Shown here: piece after piece, positions 52,454 to 64,000 of the stretch | Layout: the number at the start of each line of letters is the position of its first letter | How positions within the stretch are numbered: the stretch's first letter is position 1 | DNA from: Paracoccaceae bacterium | Lineage (GTDB): Bacteria; Pseudomonadota; Alphaproteobacteria; Rhodobacterales; Rhodobacteraceae | DNA length: 64,000 nt | Reading direction: 5' to 3' | Assembly (NCBI GenBank): GCA_003567315.1 | Contig: PWZT01000037.1 | Span: 62,001 to 126,000 of the forward strand | Notes under the pieces: generated by a model | Told to the model about the DNA's origin: nothing | What the model saw: only the letters and a program-made list of their open reading frames with translations | Databases searched by the model: none | Program-made: the position numbers and the translations under genes

Positions 52454-52868
52454 GCAATTCTCCTTTGTTCGGGTGCCGAATACCGGCACAAGTAATCCGG
52501 CATCCGCGATCCGGAACGCCGTCTTTGCCCAGCGTATCTAACCAGCCAGGCAGTTCAAGCATTCCCGGCATTATGCGCCTCCTCAGAAGCATGAAACCGC
52601 CAAGCCCGCGATTGTGGCCTGTCGCGTCGGCCCCAGCCGAGTCTCTCGAGCGCGATCGGGAAATAACTTTGTCTGCTATTTTCGTGACAAGCGTTACAAA
52701 TGACTTCATTTTGTGCTTAATTCAGATCATATTGTAATAGTAAGGATATCTTTCAGAACTTTTGCCCAACCAACCTGTGTTAGCATAATCATCGATGAGG
52801 CGCAGTAGGGGTCGCAAACAGACTTCGGGCGCGCATTCTTGAGACTTGACGCGAAATTGATGCAGTGA

Positions 52869-52884
52869 ATACTGTATCCAAAAT
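52869..52884. promoter_or_regulatory. Candidate GntR operator upstream of tctC
   Basis: ATACTGTATCCAAAAT; 14/16 match to the reverse complement of 61484-61499; overlaps a plausible -10 (TTGACG at 52846, TACTGT at 52870). Confidence 0.6.
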
Positions 52885-52964
52885 CCAATCGGGCCGAACC
52901 CGAGATCTACCACCAAGATCCGCCCCGCCGAGGGCGACACAAACTCGCAACAAGGGAGACGACC

Positions 52965-53942
52965 ATGTTCCTATCGAAACTTAAGCTCAAAGCGACCGCC
53001 GCCACAGCGGCCGCAGCCATGATGGCCATTGCACCGACGCTGGGCGCGGCCAGCCCGCTGGGCAGCGACCCGCTGCGTCTGGTCATCCCTTTCGGCCCGG
53101 GCGGCGGCAGTGACATCACCGCGCGCGTGCTCTCGGCCACAGCGCCCGAATTCTGCGGCCCGCGCATTGACGTCGTCAGCATGTCCGGCGCCGCCGGGCT
53201 GGAGGCCGTGAACTTCGTGCGCAATGCCGAACCCAATGGCCACACATTGCTGGTCTCGGATTACGGCCCCATCGTCACCTCCGGCTATATCGATGATGTC
53301 GACTGGAGCCATGACGACTGGCAGCCGGTGATGAATTTCACCGAATGGCAGCCGACGGTTTACACCCGCCCCGATCACCACATCCAGACCATTGATGACT
53401 GGATGGCTTACGCCGAAGAGAACCCCGACACTGTGACCTTCGGCCATGCCTCGCCACTGGGCATCGTGCATCTGCCGCTGATCCTGCTTGAGGAAACGAC
53501 CGGGATCCAGAACGTGCATGTGCCGACCTCGGGTGGCGGCGAGACGCGCAGCCTCGTGATGGGTGGCCATATCGATCTGGGCATGACCCTGCCCGCCTCG
53601 ATCGCGCCCGAAGTCGCCTCGGGCGAGTTGACCGCGCTGGGTGTGTTCTCGGAAGAGCGTGCGTCGCAACTGCCCGACACGCCGACCTTCCGCGAATCGG
53701 GCTATGACGTGGTGCTGCCCGCCTGGCTGATGATCTTCGCGACAACAGACGTGCCCGCCGAGACTGTCGAATTCCTGCAGGACTGCTTCATGGAAGCGCT
53801 GGAATCGCCGACAGCACAGGCCATGAACGACCGCGTGAATGCCGGGATCGAGCCGCTGAATTCCGAGGATGCCACCACGCTCTATCAGAACACGGTGGCC
53901 TCAATCGGGAACATCCTCCGCGACATCGGCGAGATCGAGTAA
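52965..53942 (+). CDS. Tripartite tricarboxylate transporter substrate-binding protein (TctC family)
   Basis: Signal peptide; PLRLVIPFGPGGGSDITARVL, NGHTLLVSDYGPIV, ERASQLPDTPTFRESGYDVVLPAWLMIF. Confidence 0.9.
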   Translation: MFLSKLKLKATAATAAAAMMAIAPTLGAASPLGSDPLRLVIPFGPGGGSDITARVLSATAPEFCGPRIDVVSMSGAAGLEAVNFVRNAEPNGHTLLVSDYGPIVTSGYIDDVDWSHDDWQPVMNFTEWQPTVYTRPDHHIQTIDDWMAYAEENPDTVTFGHASPLGIVHLPLILLEETTGIQNVHVPTSGGGETRSLVMGGHIDLGMTLPASIAPEVASGELTALGVFSEERASQLPDTPTFRESGYDVVLPAWLMIFATTDVPAETVEFLQDCFMEALESPTAQAMNDRVNAGIEPLNSEDATTLYQNTVASIGNILRDIGEIE

Positions 53943-54063: not shown

Positions 54064-55584
54064 ATGTTTCTTGATGCCTTTGCCGACGCGCTTCTTCTCG
54101 CCTTCAGCCCCGAGGTCATCTTCTTCGTCGCGATCGGGATTGCCATGGGGATTACTCTTGGCGCCATCCCCGGCCTGAGCGGCGATATGGCCATCGCCAT
54201 CCTGCTTCCAGTCGTTTTCGTCCTCGAACCTGCGGCGGCACTCGGACTGCTCACAGGGATATACAAGGGCGGCATGTTCGGAGGGTCGATATCCGCGATC
54301 TCCTTCGGGGTGCCGGGCACGCCCGGCTCCGCCGCGACCGCGATCGACGGCTATCAGGCCAAGCTCAATGGCACCCCCAACAAGGCACTGAACACCGCGC
54401 TCTACTCCTCGGTCATCGGCGATTCCACCTCTGACCTGGTGCTGATATTTCTGGCGCTGCCCCTGGCCATCGTCGCGCTGACCTTCGGCCCGGTCGAGTT
54501 CTTCGCGCTCTATGCCTTCTCGCTCCTGCTGATTTCGGCGCTGACCAAGGGCAAGGTCGCCAAGGGCGTCGCGATGGCAGCACTCGGCATCCTGCTCGCG
54601 ATGATCGGGCGTGACCCGGTCGGGGGCTCGGTGCGGCTGACCTTCGGCATCCCCGAACTTGCGGGCGGGCTGGCGCTGATCCCGGTGCTGGTGGGCATCT
54701 TCGCTGTCTCCGAGCTGATCATCCAGCTTGGCCGCGCCTGGCTCGAGCGCGCGCAGAGAATCACCGCCGAAACCGAGAAGCGCGCCGAGAGCCTGCTGGG
54801 CGATTATGACCCGGCCAAGGACAAGCTCACCTTCGCCGAATTCCGCGCCACCTGGAAGGCCACCTCGATCGGCACCACCATGGGCACGCTGGTGGGCGCC
54901 CTGCCCGGCGCGGGCTCGTCGCTGGCGGCCTTCATCAGCTACGGGCTGGCGCAGCGCTTCTCGCGCAAACCCGATGAGTTCGGCAAGGGCTCGCTCGAAG
55001 GCGTCGCCGCCGCCGAGGCGGGCAACAGCGCCACCTCGGGCTCGACGCTGATCCCGCTTTTCGCCTTCGGCATCCCGGGCTCGGCCACGGCAGCGCTGTT
55101 TGGCGCGGCCTTCATCCTCATGGGCATGACGCCTGGGCCGCGGCTGATCTATGACCACACGGATGTCATCTACGCGCTGTTCCTGATTCTGATCTATGCC
55201 AATCTGATCAATCTGGTGCTGTCGCACTTCCTGCTGCCACTCTACTCCAAGATCGCGATGATCCAGTCGCGGATCCTGCTGCCCATCGTCTGCGTGCTGG
55301 CGATCCTCGGCACTTTCGCAGCGGGCAATTCGGTGATCGATGTCTATGTGCTGCTCTTCGCGGGGCTGTTCGGCGTGGTGCTGCGGCTCTACAGCTTCCC
55401 GCTGGCGCCGTTGATCCTGGGCTTCATCGTCGCCCCGGGGGCTGAACGCGCACTGCGTCAGGCGTTGCTGATCGGGCGCGGGGAATGGACCTCGCTGCTC
55501 TCCAGCCCCATCGCCATCGGGCTCTATGCCACGGCAGCGATCATGATCATCACCTTCACATTCATCCTGCGCGAGCGCAAATAA
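54064..55584 (+). CDS. Tripartite tricarboxylate transporter large permease (TctA family)
   Basis: GAIPGLSGDMAIAILLPVVF, YKGGMFGGSISAISFGVPGTPGSAATAIDGY. Confidence 0.94.
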   Translation: MFLDAFADALLLAFSPEVIFFVAIGIAMGITLGAIPGLSGDMAIAILLPVVFVLEPAAALGLLTGIYKGGMFGGSISAISFGVPGTPGSAATAIDGYQAKLNGTPNKALNTALYSSVIGDSTSDLVLIFLALPLAIVALTFGPVEFFALYAFSLLLISALTKGKVAKGVAMAALGILLAMIGRDPVGGSVRLTFGIPELAGGLALIPVLVGIFAVSELIIQLGRAWLERAQRITAETEKRAESLLGDYDPAKDKLTFAEFRATWKATSIGTTMGTLVGALPGAGSSLAAFISYGLAQRFSRKPDEFGKGSLEGVAAAEAGNSATSGSTLIPLFAFGIPGSATAALFGAAFILMGMTPGPRLIYDHTDVIYALFLILIYANLINLVLSHFLLPLYSKIAMIQSRILLPIVCVLAILGTFAAGNSVIDVYVLLFAGLFGVVLRLYSFPLAPLILGFIVAPGAERALRQALLIGRGEWTSLLSSPIAIGLYATAAIMIITFTFILRERK

Positions 55585-55601: not shown

Positions 55602-56081
55602 ATGAAAAGCACTCTGACCGCCATGCTGAGCCGACAGGATTTCTACACCGGGCTTGTGACGATCCTTGTCGGTGTGATCGGGCTTCTCGATATTGCCTAT
55701 GGCAACTGGCGTCCTGGTCCCGGGATCGGGCCGCATGCCTTCCCGCAGCTTGCCTATATAGCGCTGGTCATCGCGGGGCTGGTGATCTGGATCGATGTGG
55801 CGCGCGGCAAATCCGATGAGCGCCCCGATTACCTGCGCGTCACGCTCTCCACGGGCGTAGCGCTGGTCGCAATCGGGATGGGCATGTTCTGGCTCGCGGG
55901 CAAGCTGGGGCTGGGCGTGAGCGTTCTGATCACGCTGATCGGCACCAGTTTCCTGCTCACGCGCGACCCGCTCAAACACTGGCAGAGCACCATCCTGGTG
56001 CCCGTCATCGCCAGCATCGTGATCTGGATTCTCTTTGTCTGGCTGATCAATATCCCCCTACCACGCGGCCTGCTGATCTGA
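55602..56081 (+). CDS. Tripartite tricarboxylate transporter small permease (TctB family)
   Basis: About 4 TM helices; small ORF directly after tctA. Confidence 0.85.
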   Translation: MKSTLTAMLSRQDFYTGLVTILVGVIGLLDIAYGNWRPGPGIGPHAFPQLAYIALVIAGLVIWIDVARGKSDERPDYLRVTLSTGVALVAIGMGMFWLAGKLGLGVSVLITLIGTSFLLTRDPLKHWQSTILVPVIASIVIWILFVWLINIPLPRGLLI

Positions 56082-56108: not shown

Positions 56109-57137
56109 TCACTGCCGCGCGGGCCATGTATCATTGAGCCTGTACCCGCGCGGCCATGGGTCTTCGGGGTCGAGCAAAAGCTGGCGCGTGTCGGTGATCC
56201 AGCCGCGCCCCGAGATCTCGGGCAGCACTGCCGGCAACTCGCCCACACGCGCCTCGCCCATGATCCGCCCCTGAAAGCGCGAGCCGATCAGCGAGCGTGC
56301 TGTCAGCACCTGCCCCGGCGCGATCTGCCCGCGCTGATGCATCAAGGCAAGCTGCGCGGAGACCGCCGTGCCTGTGGGCGAGCGGTCCACTTTCGCGGGC
56401 TCGATCACCACAGCATGACTGACCTCGGGCCCCTCTGCGCCCGCAACCGGCGGGCTCGCCATCAGGCAGAAGGAGATATGCTGCCAGTCCGGGTTCTCGG
56501 GATGCGAGAAGCCAAGCTGCGCATTCGCCGCCGCCGTGATCCGCGCGCCCGCCTCGGCGATGTCGCGCGCCTCATCTGCGGCCATTATGAAACCCAGCGC
56601 ATTGGCATCGACCACCACGAAACTGTCGCCGCCATAGGCAGTGTCCACGCGCAAGGTGCCAAGCCCGGCAACTTCGAGCGCGACGTCGAGTTGCCCTGCG
56701 AAAGAAGGCACATTGCGCACGAAAATACGCCGCGCCTTGCCCCCCGCACATTCGGCGCGCACATGGATCAGCCCGCCCGGCGCTTCCAGCACCATCTCGG
56801 TCACAGGCTCCTGCATCGGGATGATCCCGGTATCGAGCAGCACTGTGGACACGCAGATCGAGTTCGAGCCCGACATGGGCGGCGTGTGCTCGGGCTCCAT
56901 GATGATGAACCCCATCTGCGCGCGCGGATCCTTTGGCGGCACCAGCAGGTTGATATGGCGAAACACGCCCCCGCGCGGCTCATGCAGCACGAAATCGCGC
57001 AAGCTGCCATCGCGATGGATCCAGCGCGCCTGCTCCCAGACGGTCTTGCCCGGCGGCGGCGCCACGCCGCCCACGATCACATCACCCACTTCGCCTTCAG
57101 CATGGCAGCCGACAATCTGGATGGACCGTGTCGAGCG
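56109..57137 (-). CDS. Proline racemase superfamily protein, trans-3-hydroxyproline dehydratase-like
   Basis: [59 protein letters not shown]; both catalytic Cys positions replaced (Ser, Thr). Confidence 0.8.
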
Positions 57138-57139
57138 CA

Positions 57140-58243
57140 TCAGACCACCTCCAGCACAGGCTCGCCCAGGACGCGGCGATCCGGGGTTACACCCAGCCCG
57201 GGCCGGTCCGCAGCCTGCATCCGGCCATTGATGCGCTGCGGGGCATCGGGCGCGATGGTGACAGTGCCATAGCTGTTGAAATCCGTGGCCGAGAAGGCGA
57301 AATCGCTTGGCGTGGATTGCGCCAGATGCGCGATGGCCGCCGTGACGATATCGCCGCCCCATGTATCCTCGATCGTCATCGGCACCCCGGCCGAGAGGCA
57401 CAGATCGCGCATCTGCCGCGCGCGGGTCAGCCCGCCGACCTTGGAGATCTTGAGGTTGATCACATCCATCGCCCCATCGCCCAGCGCCCGCGTGAGCGCG
57501 CCGACATCGGTGATCACCTCATCGAGCACAAACGGCAGCGGGCTGCGTCGCCGGGTCGCGAGGCATTCCTCATAAGTGGGCGAGGGCTGTTCGATATAGA
57601 CATCGAGATCGCGCACCGCATTCACCACGCGCGCGGCCTCATGCATGGTCCAGCCCGTATTGGCATCGGCCACCAGCACTTCGCCCGGCTGCATCGCCTC
57701 GGCGCAAAGCCTAATCCGCGCGATGTCGCTGTCGGCATCGGCGCCGACCTTGAGCTGGAAGCGCGTATAGCCCTCGGCGCGGTACTGCGCGACATTCTCG
57801 GCCATCGCGGCGGGTTCGATCTGCGAAATGGCGCGGTAGAGCACCACATCCTCCTGCGCCTTGCCGCCCAGCAGCGTCATCACTGGCTGGCCCGTGACCT
57901 TGCCCAAGATGTCCCAGCAGGCCACATCCAGCGGTGCCTTGGCGTAGGCATGGCCACGCAACGCCGCATCCATCCGCCGGTTCAGCACATCGAGCGCGCG
58001 CGGGTCGGCCCCGATCAGCGCGGGCGCGAGTTCCGCAAGCCCCGCGCGCACCCCGCGCGCGAAGGCCGGGAGATAGGCGGAGCCAAGCGGGCAGCTTTCG
58101 CCCCAGCCCGTGATCCCGGCATCGGTCTCGACCTCGACCACAGTGCTGTCGAACACCTCGACAAAATTGCCATTGGACCAGCTATAGCGGCCCTCCTTGA
58201 GCGGCAGATCGACCTGATAGGCGCGGATGGCAGTGATCTTCAT
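57140..58243 (-). CDS. Enolase superfamily (MLE/MR) enzyme, cis-3-hydroxyproline dehydratase- or hydroxyproline-betaine-epimerase-like
   Basis: [60 protein letters not shown]. Confidence 0.85.
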
Positions 58244-58262: not shown

Positions 58263-59522
58263 TCAGGAAAATGCGAAACGGTTGATGCGAAACGGCGCGA
58301 GGTCGATTTCCGGCGTGGCCCCGGTGACCAGATCGGCCACAAGCCGCGCCGTGCCCGCCGCTTGCGTGAGGCCCAGATGGCCATGGCCAAAGGCATGGAT
58401 CACCCGGCGCGTGGCGCGCGACGGGCCGATCACCGGCAGGCTGTCGGGCATGGAGGGGCGAAAGCCCATCCAGCGCTGCCCGCCCTGCGTATTCAAGCCC
58501 GGCAGGAAAGCGCGCGCCTTGTCCAGAAGCACCTCGACCCGCCGCCAGTTCGGCGGCAGGGTCAGCCCACCCAGCTCCACCGCCCCGCCAACGCGGAGGC
58601 CCTGACCGATCTTGGTGACGACAAACCCGTGATCGGCAAAGCTCAGATGTGTCTTCTGCTCAAAACGCGGGTCCGGCAGCGTGCTGTTATAGCCGCGCTC
58701 GGTCTCCAGCGGCGGGCGCTCGCCCAGACTGCGCGCCAGATAGTGCGACCACGCCCCCGCGGCCAGCACGACATGGCCCGCGCGCAAGCTCGCGCCATCG
58801 CTCTCCACCCGCACATGATCGCCCTCCGGTGCCAGCGCGCGCGCCTCGGCCTGCGCCACGCGGCCACCCGCCTGCACGAAGCAATCGCGCAGATGCGCCA
58901 GCCAGGCGGCGGGATCGGTGGTGTTGAACCAGCCCGGCGTATAGGCCGCGAAACGAAAGCGCGCATCGAGCCCGGGTTGCAGCTCGGCAATGCGCGCAAG
59001 GTCATCCTCGATCAACTCGAAGGGGATGCCATGCGCACGCCGCGCCGCCCAGCCCGGCTGGCTGGCACGAAAGCTGGCGGCGCTGTCATAAAGCTGCAAC
59101 TGCCCCTCGCGCCGCAAGAGCGGCTCGGCCCCCGTCACGGCGACCTGCGCCTCGAGCGCCGTTTTCGACAGGCCCATGAGCGCGGCTTGCGCGGCAAGCG
59201 ATTTTGCATGCTGATCACGCGAGCTTGCGCGCCAGAAGCGCAGCAACCACGGTGCGATCCTGAGCGCATAGCGCGGCGGCACCGAAAGCGGCCCCAGCGG
59301 ATCGAGCAGCCATTTCGGCGCGCGCTTCATGATGCCGGGTGCGGCCAGCGGCTCGATATCGCTGAAGGCAAAGGCCCCGGCATTGCCGCGCGAGGCCCCC
59401 TGCCCGCCCCCATCGCGTTCGATCAGCCGCACCGACAGCCCACGGCGCTGCAACTCCAGCGCCGCGCTCATGCCGATCACGCCACCGCCGATGACCAGCA
59501 CATCTTGCAGCGCGGCACTCAC
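58263..59522 (-). CDS. FAD-dependent D-amino-acid (D-hydroxyproline) dehydrogenase-like oxidoreductase
   Basis: [63 protein letters not shown] start overlapping the upstream gene stop. Confidence 0.88.
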
Positions 59523-60484
59523 GCGCGGGCTTTCGCGGCGGCAGGAGACGCGCCAGCCGGGCCGGGTATGCCGCTCGCATAAGGGTCGGAGGGCGCGAAA
59601 TGCAGCACCGCCTCGCCCGTCACCCAGGCGCGGCCCCGGATCACCGGCACGATCCGCCCCTCCGGGCCCGGCGTGTAATGCAGCCGATAGCTGCTCCCGA
59701 TGATGCTCTCCTGCACCCACTCCGTGCCAGGTGCCAGCCTGCCATCCTCGGCCAGACAGGCCAGCAGCGCCGAAGTGCCCGTGCCGCAGGGCGAGCGATC
59801 ATGGCTGCCCGCAGGGCAGAGCACATAGTTGCGCGCATCGGCCCGCCCGGACGGGCCAAGCAGGATGATGTGATCGATCCACGCCCCGCCCGCGCCGGTC
59901 CAGCCCTGCGCCTCCAGCGCGCGACGGATGCGCAGCGTTGCCGCCTGAAGCTGCGGGATATTGGCCTGCTCCAACGCACAGGGCAGATCACGGGTGATGA
60001 AAAACCAGTTGCCGCCCCAGGCGATATCGCCTGTGAAACGGCCCAGCCCCTCGACCTCCAGCGCGACATCCTTGTGCAGCCGGTAACTTTCGACATTGGT
60101 GATGCTCGCCTCATCGGGGCCATGCAACGCGACTGTGACAAGACCCACCGGCGTCTCCAACCGGTGCGTGCCCGGCTCAATCCGCCCCAGATGCGCCAGC
60201 GTGATCGCTGTCCCGATAGAGGCATGCCCGCACATGCCCAGATTACCGATCGCGTTGAAATAGATCACCCCGGCGGCGCAATCGGGCTGCGATGCCGGCA
60301 CCAGAAGTGCCGCGACCAGCGCCTCCGACCCGCGCGGCTCGCGCACCACACCATCGCGAAAACCCGCATGGTCACGCGCCAGAACAGCCGCGCGGTCGGC
60401 CACGCTGCCGCTGCCCAGATCAGGCGCGCCCGACAGGATCACCCGCGTCGGCTCGCCCTCGGTATGGCTGTCGATCACACGCAT
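59519..60484 (-). CDS. 4-hydroxyproline 2-epimerase-like proline racemase family enzyme
   Basis: MRVIDSHTEGEPTRVI, GMCGHASIGTA, DRSPCGTGTSALLA; both catalytic Cys present. Confidence 0.9.
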   Translation of the reverse strand: MRVIDSHTEGEPTRVILSGAPDLGSGSVADRAAVLARDHAGFRDGVVREPRGSEALVAALLVPASQPDCAAGVIYFNAIGNLGMCGHASIGTAITLAHLGRIEPGTHRLETPVGLVTVALHGPDEASITNVESYRLHKDVALEVEGLGRFTGDIAWGGNWFFITRDLPCALEQANIPQLQAATLRIRRALEAQGWTGAGGAWIDHIILLGPSGRADARNYVLCPAGSHDRSPCGTGTSALLACLAEDGRLAPGTEWVQESIIGSSYRLHYTPGPEGRIVPVIRGRAWVTGEAVLHFAPSDPYASGIPGPAGASPAAAKARA

Positions 60485-61443
60485 TTCAGATCGTCATCCA
60501 GCCTTTCGGACCAATCGGCATACCAGCCCCTAAACAGCGCGAGTTGCGCCTCGGCATAACCTGCCTGCGCGGGGCTCAGCATGTCGGTCGGGTTGATGTT
60601 GCGCGCATATTCCGCCTCGCCCAGCACTGTGAGCATATGCTTGTAATAAAGCACCAGATCGACCCCCTCATCGAAAGAGGACAGGACCTGCAACGCCGCG
60701 TCCAGCTCCTGCGCGGCGCGGCGCGCGCGGGCATCCCCGGCAGCAGCCTTGCGCGCGAGCGCGACCAGATGCAGCACTTCGCGCGGCAACACATTGCCGA
60801 TCCCCGTGATCGCACCGCGCGCGCCGAAATTCACGAAGCCCTCATAAACCATGGTATCGACGCCGACCATCAGCGTGATCGACGCTTCCCCGCTGGTGAT
60901 GAACTCCGCCGCGCGGCGCAGCCCTTCGCGCCCGCCGAACTCCTTGAAGCCGACAAGGTTCGGGTGCTCCGCGCGCAGAGCGAAGAACAGATCAGGGCCA
61001 GTCGCAAAGCCGTAATGCGGGCTGTTATAGATCACCGCCGGGATATCCGGTGCGGCCGACAGGATGGCCTTGAAATGCGCGCGCTGTGCGGCGACCGAAC
61101 TGCCGCGCGACAGAACGCGCGGGATCACCATCAGCGCCTGCGCGCCCACCTTCGCAGCATGCGCGGCATGCCCGACGGCGCTCGCAGTATTGACCGCCCC
61201 TGTGCCCGCCATCACCGGCACGCCAGCTTCGACCAGCCGCGCCACACCGTCCTGGCGGTCGGCATCAGAGATCAGCGGCCAGTCGCCCATCGAGCCACAA
61301 TAGACGACCCCCGACATGCCCGCGTCCATCAGCGCCTGCCCCTTGCGCACAAGCGCGGCCATGTCGGGGCGGTGATCCGCGCCGCAAGGCGTCATCAGCG
61401 CGGGCATGCAGCCATCGAGAAGTGCCGTATCCATCATCCTCAC
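60475..61443 (-). CDS. Dihydrodipicolinate synthase family protein, possibly pyrroline-4-hydroxy-2-carboxylate deaminase
   Basis: GCMPALMTPCGADHRPDMAALVRKGQALMDAGMSGVVYCGSMGDWPLIS; VIYNSPHYG. Confidence 0.85.
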   Translation of the reverse strand: MRMMDTALLDGCMPALMTPCGADHRPDMAALVRKGQALMDAGMSGVVYCGSMGDWPLISDADRQDGVARLVEAGVPVMAGTGAVNTASAVGHAAHAAKVGAQALMVIPRVLSRGSSVAAQRAHFKAILSAAPDIPAVIYNSPHYGFATGPDLFFALRAEHPNLVGFKEFGGREGLRRAAEFITSGEASITLMVGVDTMVYEGFVNFGARGAITGIGNVLPREVLHLVALARKAAAGDARARRAAQELDAALQVLSSFDEGVDLVLYYKHMLTVLGEAEYARNINPTDMLSPAQAGYAEAQLALFRGWYADWSERLDDDLKCV

Positions 61444-61483: not shown

Positions 61484-61499
61484 ATATTGGATACAATAT
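61484..61499. promoter_or_regulatory. Candidate GntR operator in the divergent intergenic region
   Basis: ATATTG-GATA-CAATAT inverted repeat between the catabolic operon and the GntR gene. Confidence 0.6.
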
Positions 61500-61561
61500 G
61501 CATTTTACACCCTTCCCCGCGGGGAAGGTCCGGGGTATTCTGCGCGCGGGAGAACAGATTT

Positions 61562-62218
61562 ATGAAAATTCAGGCATTCGACGTCTCGAAAGCGGCCTCG
61601 GCCACCAGCATCGTGTTCGACGCGCTGCGCAAGGCGATCATCACCGGCGATCTGGCGGAAGGCGAGCATCTGCGCCAGGACGAGATTGCGCGCGCCTTCA
61701 ATGTCAGCCGCATCCCTGTGCGCGAGGCGCTGCTGAAGCTGGAACAGCATGGGCTGGTGCGCAACCAGCGCTACAAGGGCGCGGTGGTCTCGGGCCTGTC
61801 ACTGGAGGAGGCCGAAGAGATCTTCGAGTTCCGCGCGCTGCTCGAACCCGAGGTGATCCGCCGCGCGGTCCCGCGCATGACGCAGGCCGTTCTGGACGAG
61901 GCACGCGCCTGCTGCGACGCATTCGCGCGCGACACCGATCCGATGCGCTGGGGCGATCACAACCGCCGGCTGCACGCCACGCTCTACGCGGCGAGCGGGC
62001 TGAGCTACCATCTCGAGGTGCTGCACAAGACGCTGGACCGGATCGAGCCCTATCTGCGCGCGCAGCTTCTGCTCAGCGACGGGATCGCGCGCGCCAATCG
62101 CGAGCACAAGGGCATCGTCGATGCCTGCGCCGCGCAGGATGCCGAGCGCGCCGCCGCCCTGACCCGCGCCCATATCCTCGGCGCACGCGATTCGCTGCGG
62201 CATAGCTGGTCGGGCTGA
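61562..62218 (+). CDS. GntR family (FCD) transcriptional regulator
   Basis: IVFDALRKAIITGDLAEGEHLRQDEIARAFNVSRIPVREALLKLEQHGLV; FCD C-terminal domain. Confidence 0.95.
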   Translation: MKIQAFDVSKAASATSIVFDALRKAIITGDLAEGEHLRQDEIARAFNVSRIPVREALLKLEQHGLVRNQRYKGAVVSGLSLEEAEEIFEFRALLEPEVIRRAVPRMTQAVLDEARACCDAFARDTDPMRWGDHNRRLHATLYAASGLSYHLEVLHKTLDRIEPYLRAQLLLSDGIARANREHKGIVDACAAQDAERAAALTRAHILGARDSLRHSWSG

Positions 62219-62779: not shown

Positions 62780-64000
62780 CTAGCGTTGTGCGCTTTGCCA
62801 GGCGGGATGCACCCAGGGCTCCAGATTGGACGCCGCCAACCGCCGACCCAGCATATGATCGGCGATCTTTTCGCCCGCCATGATCGAGGGCGCATTGAGA
62901 TTGCCATTGGTGATGCGCGGAAAGATCGAGCTGTCAGCCACGCGCACCCCTTCGACCCCGATCACCCGCCCCTCCGGGTCCACCACGGCCAGCGGATCAT
63001 CCGCCCGCCCCATCCGCGCTGTCCCGCAGGGGTGATAGGCACTCTCGACATGCGCGCGGATGAATTCATCGAGCGCGTCATCCGACTGCGCTTCCGGCCC
63101 CGGCTGGATCTCGTGGCGCAGATAGGGCGCGAAGGCCGCCTGCCCCATGATCTCGCGTGTGAGCCGGATGCAAGTGCGGAAATCCTGCCAATCCTCCGGG
63201 TGGCTCAAATAGTTGAAACAGATGCGCGGCGCCGCTTCCGGGCGGTTGGAGCGCAGCTTCACCCAGCCCCGGCTTTTCGAGCGCATCGGCCCGACATGGG
63301 TCTGAAACCCATGCCCCTCGGCAACGGCCCGCCCGTCATAACGCACGGCGATGGGCAGGAAATGATACTGGATGTCGGGATACTCCACGCCCGCCCGCGA
63401 GCGGATGAAGGCACAGGCCTCGAACTGGTTGGACGCCCCTGGCCCGCGGCGCAGAAACAGCCATTGCGCGCCCACCCAGGCTTTCCCCAGCAGGTTCCAG
63501 TACCGATAGAGCGTCACTGGCTTGGCGGCGGCATATTGCAGATAGAGCTCCAGATGATCCTGAAGATTCTCGCCCACCCCGGCCCGATCCGCCCGCAGCG
63601 CAATCCCGTGCTCTGCCAGATGCGCCGCCGGGCCAATACCCGAGAGCATAAGCAGTTTCGGCGTGTTGATGCTCGAGGCCGCGAGCACCACTTCGGCCCG
63701 CGCCACAAGCTTGCGCCCATCGAGCAACTCAACCCCCGTCGCGCGATTGCGCGCGTCGAAAAGCACCTTCGCAACCTCCCCGCGCACAAGCTGCGCACGC
63801 CGCGTGGCGAGCGCCGGGCGCAGATAGGCGCGCGCGGCCGACCAGCGCTGCCCGTGCCGGATCGTGGCCTCCATCGCGCCGAAGCCCTCCTGCTGCGCGC
63901 CATTGTAATCCTCGGTGACAGGATAGCCCGCCTGACGTCCGGCCTCGATGAAGGCATCGAAGAGCGGGTTCTCGCGCGTGCCCCGGCTTACATGCAGCGG
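62780..64000 (-). CDS. GMC family oxidoreductase (choline-dehydrogenase-like), N-terminus beyond window
   Basis: [71 protein letters not shown]. Confidence 0.93.

Follow-up and report, generated by a model that had tools for sequence, protein, structure and literature searches.

Hydroxyproline genes of Sinorhizobium meliloti are controlled by HypR, a GntR repressor, according to the passage of PMC5343134 that cites White et al. 2012. The HypR regulons of Proteobacteria described in that source comprise an FCD-type GntR protein adjoining hypD/hypE/hypO-type genes in an autoregulatory divergon, a palindromic site with 2-nt spacing, and a transporter, for which ABC, MFS and TRAP systems are named. 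HypR of Streptomyces coelicolor is an FCD-GntR repressor of hydroxyproline genes whose site, with the motif CTNTGC(A/C)ATGTCAC, covers the −10 element of its own promoter (PMC6608401). Operators of the FadR subfamily are AT-rich palindromes with TKGT/ACMA boxes, in which GT and AC stand 2–3 nt apart, and additional half-sites occur 7–12 nt from the centre (PMC4494728).

The window analyzed here, a 64,000-nt stretch of a Paracoccaceae draft genome, contains a locus of this kind (Table 1). The regulator consists of an N-terminal GntR winged helix (PF00392) and a C-terminal FCD domain (PF07729), both above cut-off, which places it in the FadR subfamily (FCD type). Its clade has a common DNA-binding segment (LRQDEIA...SRIPVREA) that is missing from the other FCD proteins of the genome, in which 7 FCD regions were found. 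The operator at 61484–61499 precedes the epimerase, dehydrogenase and deaminase genes, the DapA-family gene being the first of the catabolic operon, and the arrangement represents a putative hydroxyproline catabolic regulon in the functional sense. The HypO-like dehydrogenase has 60% identity with the corresponding enzyme of the S. meliloti pSymB hyp cluster, and the DapA-family protein is 68% identical to the one adjoining the pSymB hyp genes. The genes tctC-tctA-tctB, which run rightward from 52965 and are convergent with the catabolic operon, lie together and match all three Pfam families above cut-off; they encode a tripartite tricarboxylate (TTT) transporter. PDB relatives of TctC include BugD and terephthalate-binding proteins.

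Table 1. Features of the regulator, transporter and hydroxyproline genes in the window.
Feature	Position	Strand	Evidence or remark
Predicted tctC promoter: −35 TTGACG 52846–52851, −10 AATACT 52868–52873 (or TACTGT 52870–52875)	52846..52873	+	
Predicted operator 5′ of tctC, ATACTGTATCCAAAAT	52869..52884	+	21.5 bits; conserved in 6/6 cluster-linked tctC orthologues
Likely accessory half-site ATCCAAT	52883..52889	+	7 bp in phase 3′ of right half-site; seen in sequence
Conserved inverted repeat TCGGG-N5/6-CCCGA	52889..52903	+	Just 3′ of predicted transcript start
tctC, solute-binding receptor of TTT transporter	52965..53942	+	Pfam TctC 2.3e-35
tctA, large membrane subunit	54064..55584	+	Pfam TctA 5.6e-127
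tctB, small membrane subunit	55602..56081	+	Pfam TctB 2.6e-11
trans-3-Hydroxy-L-proline dehydratase	56109..57140	-	NCBIfam equivalog NF047722, 600 bits (cutoff 550)
NCBIfam equivalog NF043002 gene	57140..58243	-	687 bits (cutoff 500)
FAD-dependent D-amino-acid dehydrogenase, HypO-like (start codon approximate)	58263..59520	-	Pfam DAO 1.5e-60
4-Hydroxyproline 2-epimerase	59519..60484	-	NCBIfam equivalog NF052296, 452 bits (cutoff 450)
DapA-family protein, probable 1-pyrroline-4-hydroxy-2-carboxylate deaminase (HypD-like)	60475..61443	-	Pfam DHDPS 2.3e-28
Predicted operator in gntR/catabolic operon divergon, ATATTGTATCCAATAT	61484..61499	-	32.0 bits, top of window
GntR regulator, FadR subfamily with FCD, proposed repressor	61562..62218	+	Pfam GntR 4.2e-15, FCD 4.2e-25

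The locus shares with the proteobacterial HypR regulons the FCD-type regulator beside hyp-type genes, the autoregulatory divergon, the inclusion of a transporter and the 2-nt-spaced palindrome; with S. coelicolor it shares an FCD-GntR regulator, here proposed to be a repressor, and a site on a −10 element. Judged by this analogy, the system is HypR-like in kind and working. However, the transporter belongs to the TTT type, and the operator, TTGKATCCAA, departs from the TKGT/ACMA consensus: it agrees in its 2-nt spacing and in one half (TTGT) but reads CCAA in the other, and TTGGATCCAA is found in many relatives. The S. coelicolor motif is unrelated. The GntR protein and the pSymB GntR beside hypD share only 29% identity, over 85 residues, so that the former is no orthologue of the S. 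meliloti HypR; its identity to another Sinorhizobium protein is about 62%. In Paracoccus pantotrophus, a 48% relative adjoins a proline racemase-family gene and an ornithine cyclodeaminase gene, the same kind of targets as in the predicted P. denitrificans HypR regulon (PMC5343134), but neither a TTGKATCCAA-type site within one mismatch nor a TTT transporter was found near it.

The initial annotation paired the 16-mer upstream of tctC with the reverse complement of 61484–61499, and the pairing was confirmed with 14 of 16 positions identical. ATACTGTATCCAAAAT is an imperfect palindrome (5 of 8 palindromic matches) with a weaker left half. Many operators of the regulator clade carry an extra CAAT or ATTG half-site 7 bp outward and in phase. 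A symmetrised weight matrix (PWM; 26.6 bits), built from 25 sites close to the regulator gene in other genomes, placed 61484 at the top of all positions of the window (32.0 bits) and 52869 next (21.5 bits), followed by a third at 3.0 bits; the tctC site is 10 bits lower than the autoregulatory site. Pattern searches of the whole 2.84 Mb draft genome found these two loci as the sole 16-mer matches with at most two mismatches, and matches with three mismatches occurred at chance level. A third exact copy of ATTGTATCCAAT, located 5′ of purL (G000:C60:42794-42805; L226 1501-1512), was set aside because an estimate based on base composition predicts about 0.5 such copies by chance, and because its outer flanks do not match.

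The initial annotation had named a lack of conservation of the 16-mer among orthologous promoters as grounds for refutation; the site is present 5′ of gntR in 10 of 10 same-genus loci and in all six cluster-linked tctC orthologues. At gntR, the core ATTGGATACAAT or TTTGGATACAAT is retained between flanks that have otherwise diverged. An 18-bp perfect palindrome, CCTTCCCCGCGGGGAAGG (61511–61528), between the operator and gntR is not conserved in the orthologous divergons. The tctC comparison covers 11 same-genus orthologues, the window included, from few lineages. The site is kept as ATAATGTATCCAAAAT, ATTTTGTATCCAAAAT or ATAATGGATCCAAAAT, at −108 to −120 relative to the aligned start of the gene, in G012, G013, G016, G020, G031 and G033, all linked to the hydroxyproline cluster (7 of 7 with the window); in G016, gntR was seen only as fragments at contig ends. 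All four tctC orthologues from genomes that yielded no intact gntR (G002, G003, G017 and G021) lack it, the absence of gntR being provisional in G002 and G003 since these drafts are 86–87% complete. The best scores in these four promoters range from −5.6 to −0.7 bits, compared to 21.5 to 25.2 bits in the site-bearing ones. Promoters that lack the operator fall in two places of the tctC tree, and the nesting of G002 within an operator-bearing group suggests at least one separate operator loss. G021 appears to preserve a decaying regulon (L011 1501-2150, L201 9600-10650), with a gntR pseudogene containing a TAG stop and a frameshift, and a truncated dapA; its tctCAB genes are on another contig, without an operator.

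Beyond the genus, TTGKATCCAA (with at most two core mismatches) is present about 80–110 bp 5′ of the gene in 16 of 24 family-wide gntR relatives (48–65% identity), many of which form a divergon with DapA, epimerase and dehydrogenase genes. The operator also occurs with relatives of gntR from Sinorhizobium, Aminobacter, Roseibium and a Phaeobacter plasmid, and, in G024, separates gntR from an amino-acid ABC binding protein. No TTGTATCCAA was found near the loci of weaker FCD relatives (25–40% identity). In Rhodobacterales 56_14_T64, DT_103, Parasedimentitalea denitrificans and NORP86, the operator is several kb from a 55–59% identical gntR; in 56_14_T64 it precedes an operon encoding a dipeptide ABC system and an M24 (prolidase-like) peptidase, and in Sinorhizobium chiapasense and two family genomes (L190 and L191) it stands before a dipeptide ABC binding-protein gene. 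These remote operators suggest that uptake of proline/hydroxyproline peptides is under the same regulator clade. As the operator recurs across transporter contexts together with the clade-specific DNA-binding segment, it tracks the regulator clade rather than one gene neighbourhood. Operators remote from gntR were also noted at L116 17405, L117 17405, L120 17405, L121 16014, L190 17454, L191 2901 and L218 6819; in the annotated loci (L116, L190, L191 and L218) they precede a gene for a dipeptide ABC binding protein, which in L116, L190 and L191 is followed by an M24 prolidase-like peptidase gene. A weak match near an M24 gene in Zongyanglinia (L118) has three mismatches and was not counted.

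The overlap of the tctC site with the −10 element, claimed in the initial annotation, holds for either candidate element. For TTGACG, AATACT (16-bp spacer, 4 of 6 matches to TATAAT) is a better partner than the TACTGT of the initial annotation (18-bp spacer, 3 of 6 matches). TTGAC is kept in most tctC orthologues. About 9 nt past the predicted transcript start is the TCGGG/CCCGA repeat, of which one pair varies between G-C, G-U and A-U forms, with TCAGG/CCTGA in G021 and G003. Since the repeat is retained in tctC orthologues that have lost the operator, it is a separate feature, possibly a 5′ stabilising hairpin or another regulatory element.

We propose that 52869–52884 serves as an operator for the FCD-type GntR protein, which would act as a repressor and co-regulate TctCAB with 3-/4-hydroxyproline catabolism; from the sequence comparisons, we put the probability of this reading at about 0.88. 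The regulator is taken as the likely binder because the site co-occurs with its clade across genera and gene contexts. A GntR dimer would bind the 2-bp-spaced palindrome at two sites, one in the divergon that gntR forms with the hydroxyproline operon and the other over the −10 element of tctCAB; each of the two overlaps a predicted −10 element. From this placement, RNA polymerase may be blocked at both promoters when inducer is absent. A hydroxyproline isomer or pathway intermediate would then release GntR, so that transporter and enzymes are made together; with the same regulator predicted at both sites, uptake and breakdown are predicted to switch together. We infer the preference for repression over activation, the identity of the inducer and the import of a (hydroxy)proline-type compound by TctCAB. 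The initial view that transporter and catabolic operon form one predicted regulon is supported by conservation, by the weight matrix and by the joint loss of operator and regulator.

Other explanations have to account for the same data. An accidental match, or a sequence simply common in AT-rich −10 regions, would be in keeping with the overlap of the site with the −10 element, itself under conservation, and with a match originally found by eye. We consider this extremely improbable. Dinucleotide shuffles of the window give an expectation of 0.05–0.07 matches at up to three mismatches, a 3 Mb Markov sequence modelled on the composition of the window contained no 16-mer match at up to two mismatches, and one modelled on that of the two AT-rich promoters yielded 0.0004 matches per 300 bp. 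Even against a background with the composition of both promoters, 21.5 bits is reached by chance at about 1e-6 per position. Furthermore, the conserved TATCCAAAAT reaches beyond the −10 element and is lost in the orthologues from genomes without an identified intact gntR; conservation already contradicts an origin by chance.

Both sites could be genuine FadR-type operators, with a different FCD-GntR paralogue of the same genome that has a similar motif as the main binder at tctC, as FadR-subfamily motifs have a common core (PMC4494728) and the draft encodes several FCD regions. This is very unlikely given that the presence of the tctC site tracks that of gntR 61562–62218 and its cluster, that the paralogues differ in the DNA-binding segment, and that the motif is absent around weaker FCD relatives. 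Slightly less remote, although still unlikely, is activation of tctCAB by GntR, or repression of one promoter combined with activation of the other. FadR-type regulators can activate or repress according to where the site lies, a point discussed in PMC6608401, but a site on the −10 element is in the classic repressing position, and HypR of S. meliloti and of S. coelicolor are both reported as repressors (PMC5343134, PMC6608401).

The two sites define a predicted transporter-catabolism regulon of a known, conventional kind, and as such it is solidly supported. Modestly new aspects are the transporter type (TTT), the variant operator and the loss of the operator in step with the regulator; our literature search on TTT and hydroxyproline found no paper linking a TTT system to hydroxyproline. 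The more interesting part of the finding is the putative TctCAB substrate. We see an even chance that TctCAB is a TTT importer of 3-/4-hydroxyproline (or their betaines or peptides), as one of several unrelated transporters recruited to the TTGKATCCAA regulator. If so, the types recruited in different alphaproteobacteria would be TTT, dipeptide ABC with an M24 prolidase-type peptidase, and amino-acid ABC. An uncharacterised TTT transporter would be tied to hydroxyproline catabolism by a regulatory signature beyond proximity, offering a ligand guess for one TctC protein from a very large orphan family. TTGKATCCAA may be usable for annotating regulons of this GntR clade across alphaproteobacteria, and the matched loss of operator and regulator, with a change of transporter type under one operator, would provide a small, clean example of regulon evolution.

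Near the window end, the betA (choline dehydrogenase) frame at 62780–64000 begins only at about profile position 190, with the N-terminal sequence apparently in another frame, possibly reflecting a frameshift or pseudogene.
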